Shown piece after piece: positions 50,764-58,700 of a stretch of 64,000 nt of DNA. The notes beneath the pieces are model-generated. The model did no database searches. It saw nothing but the letters and a program-made list of their open reading frames with translations, and was not told the origin of the DNA. A program made the position numbers and the translations under genes. Positions within the stretch are counted from its first letter, which is position 1; the number at the start of each line of letters is the position of its first letter. This stretch comes from Terriglobales bacterium (GTDB lineage Bacteria > Acidobacteriota > Terriglobia > Terriglobales > Acidobacteriaceae), in assembly GCA_035651655.1 (NCBI GenBank), contig DASRFG010000007.1, positions 1 to 64,000 on the forward strand, in the 5' to 3' direction.

Positions 50764-51498
50764 ATGGCAGCAGCAAACGACATTCTGGAAGCAAAACCCC
50801 GCGAGTCCAGCGGCAAGAACGTGGCCCGTCGGCTGCGCAAAAGCGGCCAGGTGCCTGGCGTGGTCTATGGCGCGAAACGCGATCCCATGACCGTGAGCGT
50901 GGATCCCAAGCAGGTTTCGCGCATCCTTCATTCGGCCTCTGGGCACAACACGATTTTTGAACTGGCGCTGGACGGCGAGCGCACCAAGGCGATGATTGTT
51001 GATTGGCAGTATGAGCCCATCAAAGGCAGCCTGCTGCACGTTGACCTGAAGCGCATTGCCATGGATGAGAAGCTCCATGTGAATGTGCCGATCGTGCTTC
51101 GCGGCGAAGCCGCGGGCGTGAAGCAGCAGGGCGGCATTCTGGAACAAGTGCTGCGCGAAGTGGAAATTGAGTGTTTGCCTCAAGACATCCCCAGCTCCAT
51201 CGAAGCCGATGTCACCGAGTTGGTTTTCGGCAAGGTTATTCGTGTGGCCGATCTTCCGCACAATGAAAAGCTGAAGTTTCTTACAGATCCCAACCAGCCG
51301 GTGGCGCACGTCATCACGGTGAAGGAGGAAGTGGCTCCGACTCCGGAAGCGGTGGCTGCAGAGGCTGCCGCGGCGCCTGCCGAACCTGAAGTTATCAAGA
51401 AGGGCAAGCAGGAGACTGAGGAAGACGTTGCCGCCGAAGGGGCGACGGAGAAGGCTGAAAAGAAGCCGGAAAAGGCCGAGAAGAAAGAAAAGAAATGA
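50764..51498 (+). CDS. rplY: Ribosomal protein bL25 (CTC form)
   Basis: bL25 binds 5S rRNA. The 244-residue protein is the long TL5/CTC form: N-terminal 5S-binding domain (RESSGKNVARRLRKSGQVPGVVYG) and a second beta domain, then an Ala/Glu/Lys-rich tail of about 50 residues ending in repeated KKPEKAEKKEKK-type units. It lies 15 bases after prs. Confidence 0.94.
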   Translation: MAAANDILEAKPRESSGKNVARRLRKSGQVPGVVYGAKRDPMTVSVDPKQVSRILHSASGHNTIFELALDGERTKAMIVDWQYEPIKGSLLHVDLKRIAMDEKLHVNVPIVLRGEAAGVKQQGGILEQVLREVEIECLPQDIPSSIEADVTELVFGKVIRVADLPHNEKLKFLTDPNQPVAHVITVKEEVAPTPEAVAAEAAAAPAEPEVIKKGKQETEEDVAAEGATEKAEKKPEKAEKKEKK

Positions 51499-51518
51499 CG
51501 CAAGCTGGTGGCTAGGGC

Positions 51519-52103
51519 GTGAAGCTGATCGTCGGGCTCGGCAATCCGGGCATCGAGTACCAGTTCACGCCGCACAACCTGGGTTTTTTGGCGGTGGACC
51601 GTATCGCCGAGCGCTACCAGGTGCAGGTGAACAATCGCCACTGTCGGGCGCTCACTGGCAAAGTTGTAATTGGACCGGAAACGGTGCTGTTGGCCAAGCC
51701 AGAAACTTACATGAACCTGAGTGGCTTGGCGGTCCGGGAGCTGATTGCCGAATATGAGCTTCAGAGCGAGCGCGACCTGATTGTGATTTGGGATGAACTG
51801 GATCTGCCGTTTGGCGCTATTCGCATCCGGCAGCGGGGCAGTTCAGCCGGCCACCAGGGGGTGGAGTCAATCATCGGGGCGTTGGGTACGCAGGAGTTCT
51901 TACGGCTGCGGCTGGGCGTTGCACCCGAGCGCAAGGTGCCCGACGGAGCGCGCTACGTGTTATCGCAGTTTCGTAAGTCACAGTTGGCAGCGGTGGACAA
52001 GTTATTGGATACCGCCGCGGACGCGGTGGAAGTGGTCCTGAAAGAAGGCGCGGCAGCGGCCATGAATCGCTTCAACCGCAAAGACGAGTCGGCCGAAGAT
52101 TAG
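51519..52103 (+). CDS. pth: Peptidyl-tRNA hydrolase
   Basis: Pth releases peptides from peptidyl-tRNA that drops off ribosomes. From GTG 51519 the 194-residue protein begins KLIVGLGNPGIEYQFTPHNLGFLAVD, with the catalytic His in PHNLGF, then KPETYMNLSG and VIWDELDLPFGAIRIRQRGSSAGHQGVESI. Length fits the family. It follows rplY by 20 bases. Confidence 0.95.
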   Translation: MKLIVGLGNPGIEYQFTPHNLGFLAVDRIAERYQVQVNNRHCRALTGKVVIGPETVLLAKPETYMNLSGLAVRELIAEYELQSERDLIVIWDELDLPFGAIRIRQRGSSAGHQGVESIIGALGTQEFLRLRLGVAPERKVPDGARYVLSQFRKSQLAAVDKLLDTAADAVEVVLKEGAAAAMNRFNRKDESAED

Positions 52104-52122
52104 AGATTTGGAGAAAACGTCA

Positions 52123-52506
52123 ATGGATCGCATTTACGAAGTGATGTTTATTATCCGGCCTGATATGGCGGAAGAAGAAGTTGACCGTCTGATTTCAAAC
52201 CTGGAAAGCCAGGTCGCGGCATCGGGCGGGAAGATGAACCACGTGGAGCGTATGGGCAAGCGACGCCTGGCTTACATGGTCGGCCGCTTTCAGGATGGCA
52301 ACTATATCTTGCTGACGGTTGAGGGCGGAGGGCCAGCGATTCACGAACTGGAACGGCGCCTGCGGGTGACTGAGCCGGTGATCAAATTCCTCACCGTGAG
52401 AGTGGACCAGGAACAGGCACGACTGGCCAAAATCAAAGCTAAACGTGCGGCTAAAGCTCCCCCGCCGGCGGAGACCGGCGGCGAGCCCGCCGAAGTCACT
52501 GCATAG
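52123..52506 (+). CDS. rpsF: Ribosomal protein bS6
   Basis: bS6 pairs with bS18 in the 30S platform. The start at ATG 52123 follows GGAG by 9 bases and gives MDRIYEVMFIIRPDM, the usual S6 N-terminus; an upstream TTG is rejected. A C-terminal Ala/Pro/Lys-rich tail extends about 25 residues past the RNA-binding fold. It is part of the rpsF-rpsR-rplI run. Confidence 0.95.
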   Translation: MDRIYEVMFIIRPDMAEEEVDRLISNLESQVAASGGKMNHVERMGKRRLAYMVGRFQDGNYILLTVEGGGPAIHELERRLRVTEPVIKFLTVRVDQEQARLAKIKAKRAAKAPPPAETGGEPAEVTA

Positions 52507-52549
52507 AAGGCAGCGCGATGCGCACCACCGACAATTGTGAAGGAGAATT

Positions 52550-52918
52550 ATGGCTGAAGAAATTAGAACACAGGGTGCGGCAGATGGCGCATCCACCTCT
52601 GCGCCTCCGGCTCCAGTGCCGACATCCAGTGGTCCCAGTGGACATGGCGGGCCACGCTCAGAACGGCGCCCCGGCGGCGGGGGAGGTCGCGAGGGCGGTC
52701 GAAAGTATTTTCGCCGGAAGAAGGTCTGCAAATTCTGCGTGGAGAAGATCCAGTCTATTGACTACAAAGACTATCGCCTTCTCTCCCAGTTTGTGGCAGA
52801 GAGCGGGAAAATTGTGCCGCGCCGCTTGACGGGAGTGTGCACGCCGCACCAGCGCCGGCTGTCGGTCGCCATCAAGCAGGCCCGCAACATCGCCCTGCTG
52901 CCGTTTGGCCGCACCTAG
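52550..52918 (+). CDS. rpsR: Ribosomal protein bS18 with long N-terminal extension
   Basis: The last 75 residues ([28 protein letters not shown] onward) are a standard bS18 core. The first 47 residues form an unusual extension rich in Ala, Pro, Ser and Gly (ending [13 protein letters not shown]). GGAG precedes the ATG. It is 43 bases after rpsF. The Cys pair in VCKFC may be a metal-site remnant, as in some bS18 proteins. Confidence 0.95.
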
Positions 52919-52979
52919 AGGAATTCGGTGCAAGCAGCTCGGTAAGTGGAGCTATAGATTCGAAATGGAGTCATTCAAT

Positions 52980-53435
52980 ATGGAAGTTATTCTCAAGGAA
53001 GATGTAGGGAAGCTGGGCTCACGTGGTGACGTGGTGAAGGTAGCCGAAGGCTACGGACGGAACTACCTCCTGCCCAGAAAATTAGCTATCGAGGCAAGCA
53101 CCGCCAATAAGGCAGTGATCGAACAGATGAAGGCGGCCGCGCTGCGCCGGTCAGCGCGCGAGAAAGGAGAGGCGGAAGCTCTCTCCAAGCAGTTTGACGA
53201 TCTCAGCGTAACCTTCCGCCGCCGCTCGGGTGAACACGAGCAGTTGTTCGGCTCCGTGACCTCGGCCGACATTGCTGCCGAGCTTGAAAAGCGGGGCTTC
53301 AACCTGGATCGCCGCAAAATCCAGCTTCATGAGCCGCTTAAAGCGATAGGGGAGTTTTCCATCCCGGTGAAGCTCCACAAAGAGGTTACGGCTCACTTAA
53401 AAGTTGTCGTGGAAAAGGAAGCGACTCCCGAGTAA
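52980..53435 (+). CDS. rplI: Ribosomal protein bL9
   Basis: bL9 bridges the 50S L1 stalk region. The start at ATG 52980 follows GGAG by 9 bases and gives 151 residues beginning MEVILKEDVGKLGSRGDVVKVAEGYGRNYLLPRKLA, the family signature. A longer frame from 52905 is not supported. The linker helix and C-terminal domain are present. Confidence 0.95.
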   Translation: MEVILKEDVGKLGSRGDVVKVAEGYGRNYLLPRKLAIEASTANKAVIEQMKAAALRRSAREKGEAEALSKQFDDLSVTFRRRSGEHEQLFGSVTSADIAAELEKRGFNLDRRKIQLHEPLKAIGEFSIPVKLHKEVTAHLKVVVEKEATPE

Positions 53436-53474: not shown

Positions 53475-53527
53475 CCCCCCATTGGCCCTCGCCTATGGCG
53501 GTAAAGCCCTATAATTCTGCTCACGGA

Positions 53528-54313
53528 ATGCCTACTGACCCGTCCAAGTCTATGCAAACCGGCACAAAAGCTTTAAAGCAAGCTGTGCCGGAAACAGGTC
53601 CAGAGGTAACTATGCCGGCCGATGCTCTGGCAGTTCCGTGGACGGTTGGCGAAGGTTCCTACCCCCGCAGTGGGCAGGAACAGGGCGGCGTATCCGAAAA
53701 CCCCTCGGCTCGGGGGAGCATGGGACAGAGTTTCAGCCGCGTCGACGACACCGTCTTAGTCCGTGAGGCCCAGCGTGGCAACCACGCCGCCTTCGAAGAG
53801 TTGGTGCGCCACTACGACCATGCTGTGCTCCGGCTGGCGCTGCACCTGACCGGCTCCGAAGCCGACGCCCAGGATATTTACCAGGACGCGTTTTTGAAGG
53901 CCTACAGAAACGTGGGCAGCTTCCGGTTTGAGTGCTCTTTCTACACTTGGATTTACCGCATCGTCACGAACCTGTGTCTTGACCACCTGCGCAAGCGGCA
54001 GGTGCGCAAAGAAGATCCACCTGTGGCCACTGACGCCAGCGGCGAGCAGTACGATGTGCTGGACCAAGTGCCTGACGGACGTGCGGTCAGCAACCCGGAG
54101 CGTGATCTGATGAGGCGTGAAGTGGGCGGCCGAATCACGCAGGCACTGGAGAAGCTGACACCGCGCGAGCGCATGGTGTTTGAGTTGAAGCACTATCACG
54201 GAATGAAGTTGAGGACCGTGGGAGAGATCCTGAATACCACCGAGGAAACGGCAAAGAACACGCTGTTCCGCGCCACCCAGAAGCTGCGAGTGGTTTTGGC
54301 GGACATACGTTGA
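53528..54313 (+). CDS. ECF-family RNA polymerase sigma factor
   Basis: This alternative sigma factor has a clear region 2 (AFEELVRHYDHAVLRLALHLTGSEADAQDIYQDAFLKAYRNVGSF, then WIYRIVTNLCLDHLRKR) and region 4 (LTPRERMVFELKHYHGMKLRTVGEILNTTEETAKNTLFRATQKLR). The 5' end is uncertain: a perfect TATAAT at 53510-53515 would place the transcript start near 53521, so the first ATG after it (53528) is used here; a start at 53720 also leaves an intact sigma core. The N-terminal 75 residues are low-complexity. It is followed after 28 bases by a zinc-finger membrane anti-sigma. Confidence 0.87.
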   Translation: MPTDPSKSMQTGTKALKQAVPETGPEVTMPADALAVPWTVGEGSYPRSGQEQGGVSENPSARGSMGQSFSRVDDTVLVREAQRGNHAAFEELVRHYDHAVLRLALHLTGSEADAQDIYQDAFLKAYRNVGSFRFECSFYTWIYRIVTNLCLDHLRKRQVRKEDPPVATDASGEQYDVLDQVPDGRAVSNPERDLMRREVGGRITQALEKLTPRERMVFELKHYHGMKLRTVGEILNTTEETAKNTLFRATQKLRVVLADIR

Positions 54314-54341
54314 ATAGGGCCCCGGGAAGGGGAGGCAAGCG

Positions 54342-55280
54342 ATGAAGTGCGAATGGGTAAAGAACAATATTGTTTTGTACATCTACGATGAGCTTCTGGA
54401 CGACGCGCGTTTCGAGCTGGAGCAGCATGTTCGCCGCTGCGCAGGTTGCGCTGCTGAGCTGGACGCCGCGGGAAGCTTTAAGCAAGGACTTTCAGTCCTG
54501 CCGGTGCAGGAACCGAGCCCCAATATGCTGGCCGCCTCCCGAATGCGTCTTCAGGAAGCGTTAGAGACGGTTGAGCGTCCCGGCTGGCTGCATCGCTGGA
54601 CCTTTGATCTCTCCAGTTGGTTCACGCCTGGACGATTTTCACCAGCACTGGCCAGCGTTATTTTCATCGTGGGGTTTGCGGCAGGAATCGGCGCCACGTA
54701 CAAGATGGTTTCTGGTGTCCGTCCCAACAACTCTGCCGTTACCACCAACCAGCAACAACCTGTGGAATCTTCAATCGCGGGCATTCGCGACATCACTCAA
54801 AGGCCGGGCAGCAACAAGATTGACATCAAGTATGACACGGTGACTACACAATCGGCGCAAGGGTCGCTGAATGATTCGCGGATCCAGCAGCTATTGCTCT
54901 ACGCCGCGCGCAACAATTACAACTCCGGCGTGCGCTTGGATTCCGTGGACTTGCTGGCGCAAAATCCGCAGGATCCGCAATCCCGCGAGACCCTCATATA
55001 TGCGCTCCGCTACGATACAAACCCGGGTTGCCGGCTGAAGGCGCTTGGAGCGTTGGGCCCATACGTAAAGGGCGATACGCGGGTGCGCAATGTGGTACTG
55101 GAAGCGCTGCTGAATGATGGCAATCTGGGAGTGCGGGCGCAAGCTATTCACTTCCTGGAGCCGGTGCGGGTTGATAGCAGCGTACGCGCCGCTCTCGTCC
55201 GGCTGGCGCGGCAAGATAAGAATCAGTACATCCGCCAGCAGTCGCGTTCGGTGCTGGCTGAATTACCTGAGGTTGATTAA
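54342..55280 (+). CDS. Membrane anti-sigma factor with zf-HC2 domain and HEAT-like C-terminus
   Basis: This 312-residue protein begins with a zinc-binding anti-sigma domain: H29-x3-C33-x2-C36 (HVRRCAGC), with another Cys at residue 3. A transmembrane helix lies near residues 101-121. The remaining periplasmic part carries about 130 residues of HEAT-like helical repeats (SVDLLAQNPQDPQSRETLIYALR, KALGALGPYV, VVLEALLNDGNLGVRAQAIHFLE). It should hold the upstream ECF sigma at the membrane until a periplasmic signal acts on the HEAT tail. The gene after it starts 3 bases from its stop. Confidence 0.82.
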   Translation: MKCEWVKNNIVLYIYDELLDDARFELEQHVRRCAGCAAELDAAGSFKQGLSVLPVQEPSPNMLAASRMRLQEALETVERPGWLHRWTFDLSSWFTPGRFSPALASVIFIVGFAAGIGATYKMVSGVRPNNSAVTTNQQQPVESSIAGIRDITQRPGSNKIDIKYDTVTTQSAQGSLNDSRIQQLLLYAARNNYNSGVRLDSVDLLAQNPQDPQSRETLIYALRYDTNPGCRLKALGALGPYVKGDTRVRNVVLEALLNDGNLGVRAQAIHFLEPVRVDSSVRAALVRLARQDKNQYIRQQSRSVLAELPEVD

Positions 55281-55283
55281 GCG

Positions 55284-56477
55284 GTGAGAAGAGCGTTGGC
55301 CAAATTCGTGATTTTTGTGGCGCTTGCAGCCTTGCCCGCAGTAGCGCAGCAGTCGCGGGTTTTCCGCCAGGGCGACAGCTGGGTAGAAGAGATTACGGGC
55401 TCGCTTCCTGCGGTTCGTAATCTGCGCCTCAGCACAGATGCAGGCGCGGTTCGGGTCCAGGGCGGCAACCAAAACAGTATCAATTACGTGATCCGTAAAC
55501 GCATCAATGCATCGTCAGAGCAAGCCGCGCGGCGGCGGTTCGAGACATTTAAAGTTTCTGTCGGTACGGAGGGCGATACTGCCTCGATCGAGGGTGAAGC
55601 GCCCGAAGGCGGAGTCCACCGGCTATCAGTTGATTTTTCTTTGGATGTTCCTCGCAATCTGGATTGGGCGAAGCTGGAGACCCAGGGTGGAAGTATGGTT
55701 GTGGCTAGCATCGCTGGCCGGGTGGACGCTTCCACCGGCGGAGGAAGCATGAAGCTGGAGCAAATCGCCGGGAACATCACAGGTGAAACCGGCGGAGGCA
55801 GCATTGCTGTGGACGCGGCGGGCGCAGACCTCAAATTGGAGACCGGCGGTGGGAGCATTCATATAGGCTCGGTCAAAGGCAAGATTGAGGCGCAAACTGG
55901 CGGCGGCAGCGTAGAGGTCGGGGACGGAATGCAAGGCGCATTACTGGAGACCGGCGGTGGCAGCATTGCGGTGAGACGCTGCCTGGGAAAAGTGAAGGCC
56001 TCGACCGGGGGTGGGAGCATTGAACTGGGACAAATTGACGGTCCAGCGGAATTAGAGACGGGTGGCGGCAGTATTCGCGTGGCCGGCGCCAAGAGAGCGG
56101 TGAAAGCGGAAAGCGGTGGTGGCAGCATCGAGCTTTTCAAGCTGGGAAGCGGAGCGCGTGTCGAAACTGGCGGGGGCGCGATCATCGCGGAGTTTATCGC
56201 CAGCCGTGGAAATTTCACCGAGTCGTCACTAGAGACACCCTCCGGCGATATTACGGTTTATTTATTGCCGGAAATCGCACTTACTTTGCACGCGGCTATC
56301 GAAATGGCAAGCGGCCACAATATTCGTTCGGATTTTCCGCAGTTTAAGGTGACCATAGAAGGCGAAGAATATGGACCCAAGCGGGTCATGGCGGATGGCA
56401 GTCTGAACGGCGGGGGGCCAGTGCTCAAGGTCGAAACCAATTCAGGTGATATCTCGCTCTTGCGTGCCGGCCGCTAG
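55284..56477 (+). CDS. Secreted repeat protein with strict 18-residue period (DUF4097-type, predicted beta-helix)
   Basis: A signal peptide (residues 1-21, ending PAVAQ) leads a 397-residue protein. From T133 to T295 ten (T/S)GGGS-type motifs recur exactly every 18 residues without insertion or deletion (TQGGSM, then TGGGSM, SI, SI, SV, SI, SI, SI, SGGGSI, TGGGAI). A fixed 18-residue coil is what a left-handed or similar parallel beta-helix uses. The flanking domains match DUF4097-type text (SGDITVYLLPE, SGDISLL). Start is GTG 55284. It sits between the anti-sigma and a PDZ protein. Adhesion or sensing of envelope state are possible roles. Confidence 0.78.
   Translation: MRRALAKFVIFVALAALPAVAQQSRVFRQGDSWVEEITGSLPAVRNLRLSTDAGAVRVQGGNQNSINYVIRKRINASSEQAARRRFETFKVSVGTEGDTASIEGEAPEGGVHRLSVDFSLDVPRNLDWAKLETQGGSMVVASIAGRVDASTGGGSMKLEQIAGNITGETGGGSIAVDAAGADLKLETGGGSIHIGSVKGKIEAQTGGGSVEVGDGMQGALLETGGGSIAVRRCLGKVKASTGGGSIELGQIDGPAELETGGGSIRVAGAKRAVKAESGGGSIELFKLGSGARVETGGGAIIAEFIASRGNFTESSLETPSGDITVYLLPEIALTLHAAIEMASGHNIRSDFPQFKVTIEGEEYGPKRVMADGSLNGGGPVLKVETNSGDISLLRAGR
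55680..56219 (+). repeat. In-frame 54-bp coding repeats (ten units)
   Basis: Nine complete 54-base units from 55680 to 56165 plus a tenth start at 56166 encode the 18-residue TGGGS coils. The DNA words for the glycine turn (such as accggcggaggcagcatt) differ by synonymous changes between units, so the protein period is under selection while the DNA has diverged. Confidence 0.85.
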
Positions 56478-56509
56478 CTGAGCGCGCACCAAGCGGGCAG
56501 GAGTCGAAT

Positions 56510-57598
56510 ATGCGCAAAGCACAGTTGATAGTTCTGATGATATTGGTGCTGACGGGAGTTCAGTCCGGCTTGGCAGAACCACCGGCAAGAGTTGCTCCCG
56601 GCCCCGGCACGTTTGGAGAAGAGCAAGCCGTTTCCTATCTCGGGGTGGACACTCGCGACGTCAGTTCGGATCGTTTGGCCGAATTGAAGTTGAAGGAAGA
56701 GCGCGGCGTGGAAGTCACCATGGTGGACCAGGACGCTCCCGCAGGCAAGTTCGGCCTGAAAGAGCACGACGTAATTCTGAGCATCAACAACTCACCGGTG
56801 GAGAGCGTGGCGCAATTTCGGCGGATGATCCGGGAAGTACCCCCAGGGCGGACGGCGATCTTGGGCATCAGTCGAGACGGCCAGCCCGTGACTGTGAAGG
56901 TTGAACTAGGAAAACGCCCGCAGAGCTTTCCTTCGGGGCCCGCTTCAGGGGAGTGGGGAATGAATCACTTTCCGGCCATGCCTGCTATGCCTGCCATGCC
57001 AGCCATGCCGGCGATGCCGGCAATGCCGCGTATTGAGATGATGCCGGAGATGGACGTTCCGTCATTCGATGTGGTGGTGCATTCGTCCGTTCGCGGGGGC
57101 CTGATGGTGGAGAATTTGACCCCCCAATTGGGTGAGTATTTTGGTGTAAAGAACGGGCAGGGAGTGCTGGTGCGCTCGGTTGAGAAGGGCAGCGCAGCGG
57201 AGCGGGCTGGGTTTCGTGCAGGGGATGTTGTGATCAAGGTGGGAGGCCAGCCAATCGCTGACAGCAATGACTGGCGACGGGCTTTGCGAGCCAACGGAAG
57301 CAAGACGGTTGCTATCTCAATTGTGCGCGAACGTAAACAGCAGACACTCTCGTTTGCCGCGCCTCGCAAAGCTGGTAAAAATTCGGGGTTGCGCTTTGAC
57401 CCATTGGAGGTCAGCGCCAGCGTGGACCTCCACGGTTTGAATGCCGAACTGGAGCACATTCGGCCACAACTGGAGAAAATGCAACAGAATGCAAAACACA
57501 TGGCCGAAGAAATCCGGCGGCAGGTGAATCCAGACGAGATTCGGAAATCCATTGAAGAGCAGCTGCATCAGCTGCAACAGGAATGGGAGGAAATCTAA
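56510..57598 (+). CDS. Secreted double-PDZ protein without protease domain
   Basis: Residues 1-22 are a signal peptide. PDZ1 spans about residues 42-135 (SYLGVDTRD..., then DAPAGKFGLKEHDVILSINNSPV) and PDZ2 about 190-290 (GGLMVENL..., GSAAERAGFRAGDVVIKVGGQPI). Between them are six Pro-Ala-Met repeats. The C-terminal 60 residues form a coiled coil (LNAELEHIRPQLEKMQQNAKHMAEEIRRQ). No Ser-His-Asp protease is present, unlike DegP or RseP. It is 32 bases after the beta-helix gene, so the four genes from 53528 form one operon. It may present or recognise exposed protein C-termini in the periplasm. Confidence 0.8.
   Translation: MRKAQLIVLMILVLTGVQSGLAEPPARVAPGPGTFGEEQAVSYLGVDTRDVSSDRLAELKLKEERGVEVTMVDQDAPAGKFGLKEHDVILSINNSPVESVAQFRRMIREVPPGRTAILGISRDGQPVTVKVELGKRPQSFPSGPASGEWGMNHFPAMPAMPAMPAMPAMPAMPRIEMMPEMDVPSFDVVVHSSVRGGLMVENLTPQLGEYFGVKNGQGVLVRSVEKGSAAERAGFRAGDVVIKVGGQPIADSNDWRRALRANGSKTVAISIVRERKQQTLSFAAPRKAGKNSGLRFDPLEVSASVDLHGLNAELEHIRPQLEKMQQNAKHMAEEIRRQVNPDEIRKSIEEQLHQLQQEWEEI
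56972..57028 (+). repeat. 9-bp in-frame tandem repeat (PAM codons)
   Basis: Six units of ccngcnatg encode Pro-Ala-Met repeats between the two PDZ domains. Units vary only at third codon positions (cct, cca, ccg; gct, gcc, gcg, gca). Such a short tandem array could change length by slipped-strand mispairing. Confidence 0.75.
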
Positions 57599-57773: not shown

Positions 57774-58700
57774 ATGCTGATGCTCAGGTCTAGTCTGTTG
57801 CTGCTCTGCGTGGCATTGTCTGCCGTGGCGGTCCCAAGTTCTGGGGAAGATCAACGCGGGGATGTGGCAGCAGCAGAGTCCGTATATCAGGCGAAAGACT
57901 GGGCAAAGGCGACAAGACTTTACGAGCAGCTCGCAAACTCACATCCGAAAAGCGGCATTTATTGGTATCGCCTGGGCGTCTCTCTTGAAGCCACAGGTAA
58001 ACATCAGGCTGCCCTGGAAGCACTTGCAAAGTCCCAAGCGGCCGGAACGCCATCTTTCATGGTTGGCTTCAGTCGCGCAAGTGTATATGCCTCAATGGGC
58101 GAGTTGGAGAAGGCCATTCAGGAATTATCCGAGGCCGTGAAGCAAGGATTCAATGACCCCGACAAAATGCTTACCGATACCAACTTGCAACCGTTACGGA
58201 GCGATGCGCGTTTCCCCGCATTGCTCGAGCAGGTTAAACGTAACCAGAAGCCGTGTTTCTACAGTGCAGAAAATCGTCAATTCGACTTTTGGGTTGGCGA
58301 CTGGGACGTGGTGGCTACGGCGGACAGCGTGCCTCGAGGTTCCAGTCACATTGCAAGAGAACTGGCAGACTGCGTCATCTGGGAAAATTGGACAAGTTTG
58401 ACTACCGGGTATGCCGGAAAGAGCTACAACGTTTACAACCCGGACCGGAAGCGCTGGGAACAATTCTGGGTAGATAACAATGGGGGCATGATTCATTTCT
58501 ACGGCGGACTAAAGGACGGAAACATGGATTATTGGACCGACGAAATTCCCCAACCTGACGGGACGCGCCTGAAGCGGCATCTCCAATTTTTTAATCTCGG
58601 ACCAGACAGAGTGCGGCAATTCAGTCAGGGATCCACGGATGGCGGAAAGAGCTGGCAAGTGGAGTACGACTTCACCTATCTGCGAAAAAAGGGACCGTAG
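57774..58700 (+). CDS. Exported TPR-containing protein
   Basis: The signal peptide covers residues 1-24. Residues about 28-135 hold three tetratricopeptide-like repeats (AAAESVYQAKDWAKATRLYEQLANSHP; YRLGVSLEATGKHQAALEALAKS; SRASVYASMGELEKAIQELSEAVK). The C-terminal 150 residues are beta-rich and tryptophan-rich (FDFWVGDWDVVATADS, YNPDRKRWEQFWVDNNGG), resembling DUF1579-type domains. Likely a periplasmic scaffold. It is a separate transcription unit after the PDZ hairpin. Confidence 0.65.
   Translation: MLMLRSSLLLLCVALSAVAVPSSGEDQRGDVAAAESVYQAKDWAKATRLYEQLANSHPKSGIYWYRLGVSLEATGKHQAALEALAKSQAAGTPSFMVGFSRASVYASMGELEKAIQELSEAVKQGFNDPDKMLTDTNLQPLRSDARFPALLEQVKRNQKPCFYSAENRQFDFWVGDWDVVATADSVPRGSSHIARELADCVIWENWTSLTTGYAGKSYNVYNPDRKRWEQFWVDNNGGMIHFYGGLKDGNMDYWTDEIPQPDGTRLKRHLQFFNLGPDRVRQFSQGSTDGGKSWQVEYDFTYLRKKGP

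Follow-up and report, generated by a model that had tools for sequence, protein, structure and literature searches.

A conserved acidobacterial operon of an ECF sigma factor, a HEAT-tailed anti-sigma factor, a toastrack and a PDZ protein: a candidate self-regulating envelope-stress module

What could be the role of a sigma factor whose operon also encodes an anti-sigma factor ending in a HEAT solenoid and two proteins that appear to leave the cytoplasm? This question is raised by a locus in a stretch of 64,000 nucleotides (the window; positions 1 to 64,000 of contig DASRFG010000007.1, assembly GCA_035651655.1) from a Terriglobales bacterium of the phylum Acidobacteriota. Between positions 53528 and 57598, four open reading frames (ORFs) on the plus strand encode, in that order, an extracytoplasmic function (ECF) sigma factor, an anti-sigma factor, a toastrack protein and a PDZ protein. 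Acidobacteria are a dominant phylum of soils, but the control of envelope stress, well known from Proteobacteria and Firmicutes, has received little study in them. Both the set of four genes and its order are deeply co-conserved, and the operon may constitute a self-regulating homeostat of the envelope, of the sigma-E/RseA or AlgU/MucA kind. We hold this reading, in which the contacts and the proteolysis are drawn by analogy, with about even confidence.

The ORFs were first listed at 53528-54313, 54342-55280, 55284-56477 and 56510-57598, with gaps of 28, 3 and 32 bases. Re-reading these coordinates bears out the four same-strand frames and the spacing given in a first-pass annotation, which a model had made from the letters alone. 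Its proposal of a single operon is supported, as is strong co-conservation of the genes. It had named beforehand, as a finding that would speak against it, a lack of clustering in other acidobacterial genomes; the cluster recurs in many of them, and the annotation is therefore not refuted on this count. Within the window's order, 120 genomes were sampled and 73 loci, from part of these genomes, were fetched. A toastrack match of some kind is present in 116 of the 120 genomes; in 30 of them, the window's own genome included, the match is strong, scoring at least 247 bits. The same four-gene order, again counting the own genome, surrounds 29 of these 30. All four genes are found within 1.5 kb in 28 of the strong loci; in L104 the sigma gene was found farther out, and the thirtieth locus (L115) is cut by a contig end. 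The HEAT anti-sigma factor is matched in 115 of the 120 genomes, the five misses all belonging to family f2. Among the 73 loci, the PDZ gene is present in 71, the toastrack gene in 37 and at least one of the two in 72; L111 has the toastrack and lacks the PDZ gene. A tree of sigma and anti-sigma factors (69 rows) shows a single change of the toastrack state, and such a tree cannot distinguish gain from loss. Since the sister family f2 has all four genes in each of its four fetched loci, loss of the toastrack in a clade of 35 rows is the simpler reading.

Across the phylum, the anti-sigma profile is matched in at least 311 of 347 genomes, many of the matches listed covering the zinc-finger part only. 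Every sampled genome from the window's family has a match to the HEAT anti-sigma factor, as do loci in eleven other acidobacterial families. Outside the window's order, the 26 best-scoring genomes contributed one locus each. A sigma gene and a HEAT anti-sigma match are present in all 26, a toastrack gene in 25 (the exception is L170) and a PDZ gene in 8, the last being seen only in families f3 (2/2) and f19 (6 of 7 loci; a contig end truncates the seventh). In 17 of the 26 loci, spread over nine families, no PDZ gene was seen, one of these 17 being cut by a contig end. Because the HEAT anti-sigma factor is combined with a toastrack, without a visible PDZ gene, in nine families, the toastrack looks like the older partner of the two. 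The older core looks like sigma factor, HEAT anti-sigma factor and toastrack, with the PDZ protein as a lineage-specific partner. It could be argued that the locus is an ordinary ECF/anti-sigma pair whose unrelated neighbours have been retained by slow change of gene order, and many four-gene loci do adjoin the genes rplY-pth-rpsF-rpsR-rplI, a position that is probably slow to change. However, the three-gene clade keeps sigma, anti-sigma and PDZ genes together where the genes of the ribosomal cluster are unmatched in the fetched stretches, and outside the order the first three genes stay joined in 25 of the 26 loci. This explanation is largely refuted already and has very little probability left.

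The sigma factor matches TIGR02937 (E = 1.5e-37; 128.8 bits, cut-off 42.9), and regions 2 and 4 are present in the Pfam and NCBIfam results (Sigma70_r2, Sigma70_r4_2). The start given in the first-pass annotation, 53528, does not stand, as it falls between the -35 and the -10 of a conserved promoter. Orthologous proteins mostly begin with MPAD, MPAE or a similar motif, and the equivalent in the window is the ATG at 53612 (MPAD...), with AGAGG 5 bases upstream. On the strength of the conserved start, the AGAGG and the location of 53528 inside the promoter, 53612 is the better start, which gives a protein of 233 residues (53612..54313, plus strand). A close paralogue of this sigma factor, 68% identical, is encoded on C1 of the same genome (L116:6218-6889); it adjoins, judged by eye, an apparent PP2C-type phosphatase gene and a response regulator/kinase pair, and no HEAT anti-sigma match lies beside it in the fetched 13 kb.

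The promoter itself is well conserved. The motif GCT[CTA]AC-N16/17-[CG]GTC[TC][AT] precedes the sigma gene in 54 of 64 usable regions (spacer 16 in 46, 17 in 8), and the stricter GCTYAC-N16/17-CGTCYA in 41 of them. In 200 single-base shuffles the broad motif occurred in 0.16 of the 64 regions on average and in one at most, and among 5474 control windows elsewhere in the same loci it was found in three, its strict form in one. Four-gene and three-gene groups have it in common. In the window it reads TGCTCAC-N16-CGTCCA (53518..53546, plus strand), with the CGTC in the -10, before the own sigma gene, that marks an ECF-type promoter; it is presumed to be autoregulatory and is probably recognized by this sigma factor. 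Just upstream of the ECF -35, direct reading gives TATAAT, a housekeeping-type -10 box (53510..53515, plus strand). Among motif-bearing loci, a TATAAT at most 20 bases upstream of the -35 is present in 18 of 27 with the toastrack and in none of 27 without it; a scan for sigma-70 promoters in which both hexamers were required gave no hit. In the window's own genome the strict motif has three exact matches, one at the operon and two inside long frames that look, by eye, like aspartokinase and argininosuccinate lyase. As these matches are few and the other two lie within enzyme-like frames, the module seems to regulate mainly itself.

The anti-sigma factor (54342..55280, plus strand) consists of a zf-HC2 domain (23.3 bits, cut-off 22.2), a single transmembrane (TM) region at about residues 98-121, or 98-124 by hydropathy, a HEAT solenoid at about 179-306 (HEAT_2, 1.1e-14) and a conserved C-terminus. 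In 33 aligned rows, C3, H29, C33 and C36 of the zinc motif C...HxxxCxxC and 18 other columns, 22 in all, are invariant, and the HEAT tail is alignable across all of them. A crude hydropathy rule finds a single TM region in 67 of 70 anti-sigma proteins. With one such region the HEAT part should therefore sit outside the cytoplasm; an ECF/anti-sigma pair with a HEAT tail in that location, as the first-pass annotation had described it, is thus supported by Pfam, NCBIfam and hydropathy. An AlphaFold model made with three sequences (mean pLDDT 58.5) is confident for the HEAT part only, in which it places eight helices at 179-306, with block pLDDT values of 84-93 over 211-310. Foldseek ranks artificial alphaRep HEAT proteins and the CpcE/CpcF lyase nearest to the model (E 4.3e-4 and 5.5e-4); sequence comparison pairs the N-terminus with the RsiW structure 5wuq (E 0.002) and the tail with alphaReps. 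Most rows end in PEID or PEIQ, the window protein in PEVD. The last residue is D in 23 of 31 rows with the toastrack and Q in 30 of 35 rows without it, a tally that leaves out four rows of family f2, which end otherwise. Adjacency and co-conservation suggest that this protein may bind and restrain its cognate sigma factor. At one f19 locus (L187, G258:C131) the anti-sigma and toastrack matches share one open frame of 721 residues, which is either a fusion or a sequence error.

The third gene (55284..56477, plus strand) had been described in the first-pass annotation as a beta-helix protein of 18-residue coils. The repeats are real: nine GGG-type motifs occupy residues 151-295, all eight intervals between them are exactly 18, and the autocorrelation peaks at lag 18. 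What had gone unrecognized is that this repeat protein is, by its profile match, a member of a named family, Toastrack (DUF4097; PF13349, 27.3 bits, cut-off 22.9). Its hydrophobic N-terminus with a near-invariant A21-Q22 points to export. By crude rules, signal-peptide-like N-termini are found in 26 of 36 toastracks and in 60 of 70 PDZ proteins, counts that may be lowered by misassigned starts, and an export-like hydrophobic start is seen by eye in many toastracks outside the order as well. The two secreted cargo proteins of the earlier annotation do, therefore, look exported. The toastrack profile finds nothing among PDB sequences at E 0.01. Homology to RseB/MucB was not found, the sole Pfam hit up to E 1 being DUF4097, and neither the four proteins nor the gene on either side of the operon gives a PspC or LiaI-LiaF domain in Pfam (E up to 1). 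The same genome contains a second toastrack cluster (C30, locus L117:5744-9501, minus strand) with an ECF sigma factor (a 30% identical match) and, by Pfam, a zf-HC2 protein, a B-box/LiaF-TM protein and a TM-anchored toastrack; this cluster fits the published Lia-like (B-box/LiaF) context of toastracks.

The fourth gene (56510..57598, plus strand) encodes an exported-looking protein with two PDZ stretches (PDZ_2, 2.3e-26) that are closest, in NCBIfam and PDB hits, to those of DegP/DegQ/MucD, together with a Met-Pro-Ala linker and a predicted helical, coiled tail ending in -EEI. As had been noticed at first pass, this is a PDZ pair without a protease: no protease family is on its Pfam list, and the best-matched stretches are the PDZ regions. 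A structure model of the PDZ protein (mean pLDDT 52.6) is too poor to use. Across toastrack-containing loci the tail measures 79-163 residues, with the exception of L085 (10). The C-terminal residue of the PDZ protein is I in 16 of 35 such loci and L, F or M in 7 more; in 35 toastrack-lacking ones it is never I, L in 8 and V in 5, the rows being related by descent, so that the counts are no statistical test. Of the six f19 proteins, five have I and one has L as the last residue, and both f3 proteins end in E. PDZ ligands usually have a hydrophobic residue at the C-terminus, and hence the ending suggests that the protein carries its own PDZ ligand at the end of its tail, the boldest inference of this analysis. 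A coupling between loss of the toastrack and loss of the tail was also considered and rejected. Tails of at least 60 residues occur in 32 of 33 rows with the toastrack versus 9 of 34 without; with a single toastrack change on the tree, these counts amount to one independent pair and give no test, and L172 (toastrack present, tail absent) and L085 count against a strict coupling.

In the first-pass annotation the PDZ protein was given the leading part: it would sense exposed C-termini and act on the HEAT tail, the toastrack being a client, a sensor or a surface structure. The DegP/DegQ/MucD-like domains agree with this, as such domains bind C-termini, and so do the prevalence of the PDZ gene within the order (71 of 73 loci, the toastrack in 37) and the conserved PEID or PEIQ end of most anti-sigma factors. 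However, the last residue of that end is mostly D or Q, while HtrA-type PDZ domains prefer a hydrophobic one, and in the 17 loci outside the order the HEAT anti-sigma factor is paired with a toastrack and no PDZ gene is seen. The idea that the PDZ protein acts on the HEAT tail is therefore only partly supported, not as the core of the system, and as a whole we consider this version unlikely.

The homeostat reading leans on known systems. In the rpoE-rseA-rseB-rseC operon of E. coli and the algU-mucA-mucB-mucC operon of Pseudomonas, which mucD can follow, the order is likewise sigma factor, membrane anti-sigma factor and exported protein or proteins; DegP-type PDZ domains and likely autoregulation are also alike. 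Unlike in these systems, the window has an anti-sigma factor made of zf-HC2 and a HEAT tail, a toastrack at the position of RseB/MucB, a PDZ protein without a protease domain and a promoter whose motif has few exact matches genome-wide. The likeness is an analogy of layout, genes 3 and 4 being compared by position and not by homology. RsiW/RskA-type zinc anti-sigma factors share the zf-HC2 domain, the single TM region and an exported tail with the window protein, although the HEAT solenoid differs from their usual tails. The PDZ domains are of the same subfamily as those of the HtrA proteases DegP/DegQ/MucD, from which the window protein differs in that no trypsin-like domain is matched and the linker and coiled tail are added. 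RseB binds RseA and strengthens its inhibition, the PDZ domain of DegS senses the C-termini of outer membrane proteins, and algU-mucABC is homologous to rpoE-rseABC (PMC6737893). Toastracks are described in PMC11237479 (mSystems 2024) as lying mostly C-terminal to TM domains, with a predicted intracellular location, and their genes as occurring in membrane-stress operons, in some contexts with ABC transporters and in one with a sigma factor linked in the operon; the string 'acidobacteri' appears nowhere in the main text of that paper. The window operon resembles these Lia/PSP contexts in placing a toastrack gene in what may be a membrane-stress operon, and differs from them in the export-like N-terminus of its toastrack, the lack of a PspC/LiaF partner and the HEAT-bearing anti-sigma factor. 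In PMC3174227, 'HEAT repeat' and 'anti-sigma' occur in separate table rows and references, and neither 'HEAT' nor 'PDZ' was found in PMC8999054. No description of this operon was found in the open-access main texts searched, which did not include the main ECF classification.

On the homeostat reading, the ECF sigma factor would be held at the inner face of the membrane by the zf-HC2 domain as long as the cell is unstressed, and the HEAT solenoid outside would be the surface on which the exported toastrack docks, as the counterpart of RseB/MucB. In this lineage the solenoid would also dock the PDZ protein, likewise exported, which would take the part of MucD and lacks its protease. When the envelope is damaged, or when misfolded proteins expose their C-termini, the toastrack, the PDZ protein or both would be pulled off the solenoid; the anti-sigma factor would then be cleaved by housekeeping site-1 and site-2 proteases, and the freed sigma factor would chiefly transcribe the operon itself until the supply of exported proteins has recovered. 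Away from the operon, the genome encodes RseP (310 bits in frame to TIGR00054) and two Do/HtrA proteases that score above the cut-off, and these genes together with the rpoE/algU-type layout favour a proteolytically released sigma factor. We infer the docking on HEAT, the proteolytic release and the nature of the stress signal from such likenesses.

Several observations weigh against the homeostat. The promoter motif is missing in 10 of the 64 loci within the order and was found in none of the 26 outside it (336-390 bases upstream searched), and the TATAAT beside the ECF promoter suggests that basal transcription occurs too. In the own genome the strict motif is no commoner than a reversed-pattern control (3 versus 8 exact matches), and the same holds for TGCTYAC-N16-CGTCYA with one mismatch (10 versus 16). 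The nine non-operon matches of the latter all lie in mechanical frames of 251-590 residues; the operon's own match also falls in a mechanical frame (319 residues), so that this criterion alone fails to separate them. In 60 genomes of the window's family, 102 motif matches were counted against 80 in the control. As the motif is no commoner than its control, a few real extra targets would not stand out and may exist; a wide regulon under the conserved motif was not seen, and one with a looser motif may exist. The composition of the loci weighs against the homeostat as well. The clade of 35 rows without a toastrack keeps the HEAT tail (HEAT and PDZ in 34 of 35), the 17 loci outside the order have the tail and no visible PDZ gene, and L078 retains sigma factor and HEAT anti-sigma factor without toastrack and PDZ protein. 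Neither exported protein is therefore indispensable. Such persistence of the tail would fit a simpler arrangement, in which toastrack and PDZ protein are output only, for example a periplasmic scaffold or holdase and a quality-control adaptor, without feedback, and the HEAT tail alone senses, say, peptidoglycan or a membrane ligand; a promoter with few genome matches would also suit such a simple effector module. On the other hand, the adjacency of the anti-sigma gene with at least one exported protein in 72 of the 73 loci of the order resembles the rse and muc operons, where such proteins feed back. The output-only arrangement is possible and somewhat doubtful, and the self-regulating homeostat is preferred to it.

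A bolder joint reading combines these elements into a widespread, undescribed acidobacterial envelope-stress pathway. The HEAT solenoid would dock the exported toastrack, and the PDZ protein would carry a coiled self-ligand tail of very variable length whose last residue tends to be isoleucine, often preceded by D, E or S. This tail might plug the PDZ groove until it is displaced by exposed C-termini of damaged proteins of the envelope, which would switch toastrack/HEAT binding and release the sigma factor. Taken with all its parts, this pathway seems improbable.

As to the surroundings, the rplY-pth-rpsF-rpsR-rplI cluster (50764-53435) precedes the operon and has the same position in many four-gene loci, and in the fetched loci the next gene after the PDZ gene is often an oppositely oriented GGDEF gene. 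In the window the operon is followed by a TPR protein gene (57774-58700), which is unmatched in the other loci scanned. In f19 loci L163, L167, L168 and L187, an ABC transporter ATPase gene comes after the PDZ gene, with a permease-like gene in L168 (both by eye).

The module offers a defined promoter for testing. It also indicates that a toastrack, a member of a family of unknown function, may sit outside the cytoplasmic membrane, whereas the published model puts it inside. Kept as one cluster by many related bacteria, the module is likely to be a switch for envelope stress, similar to the sigma-E system and built from different parts.

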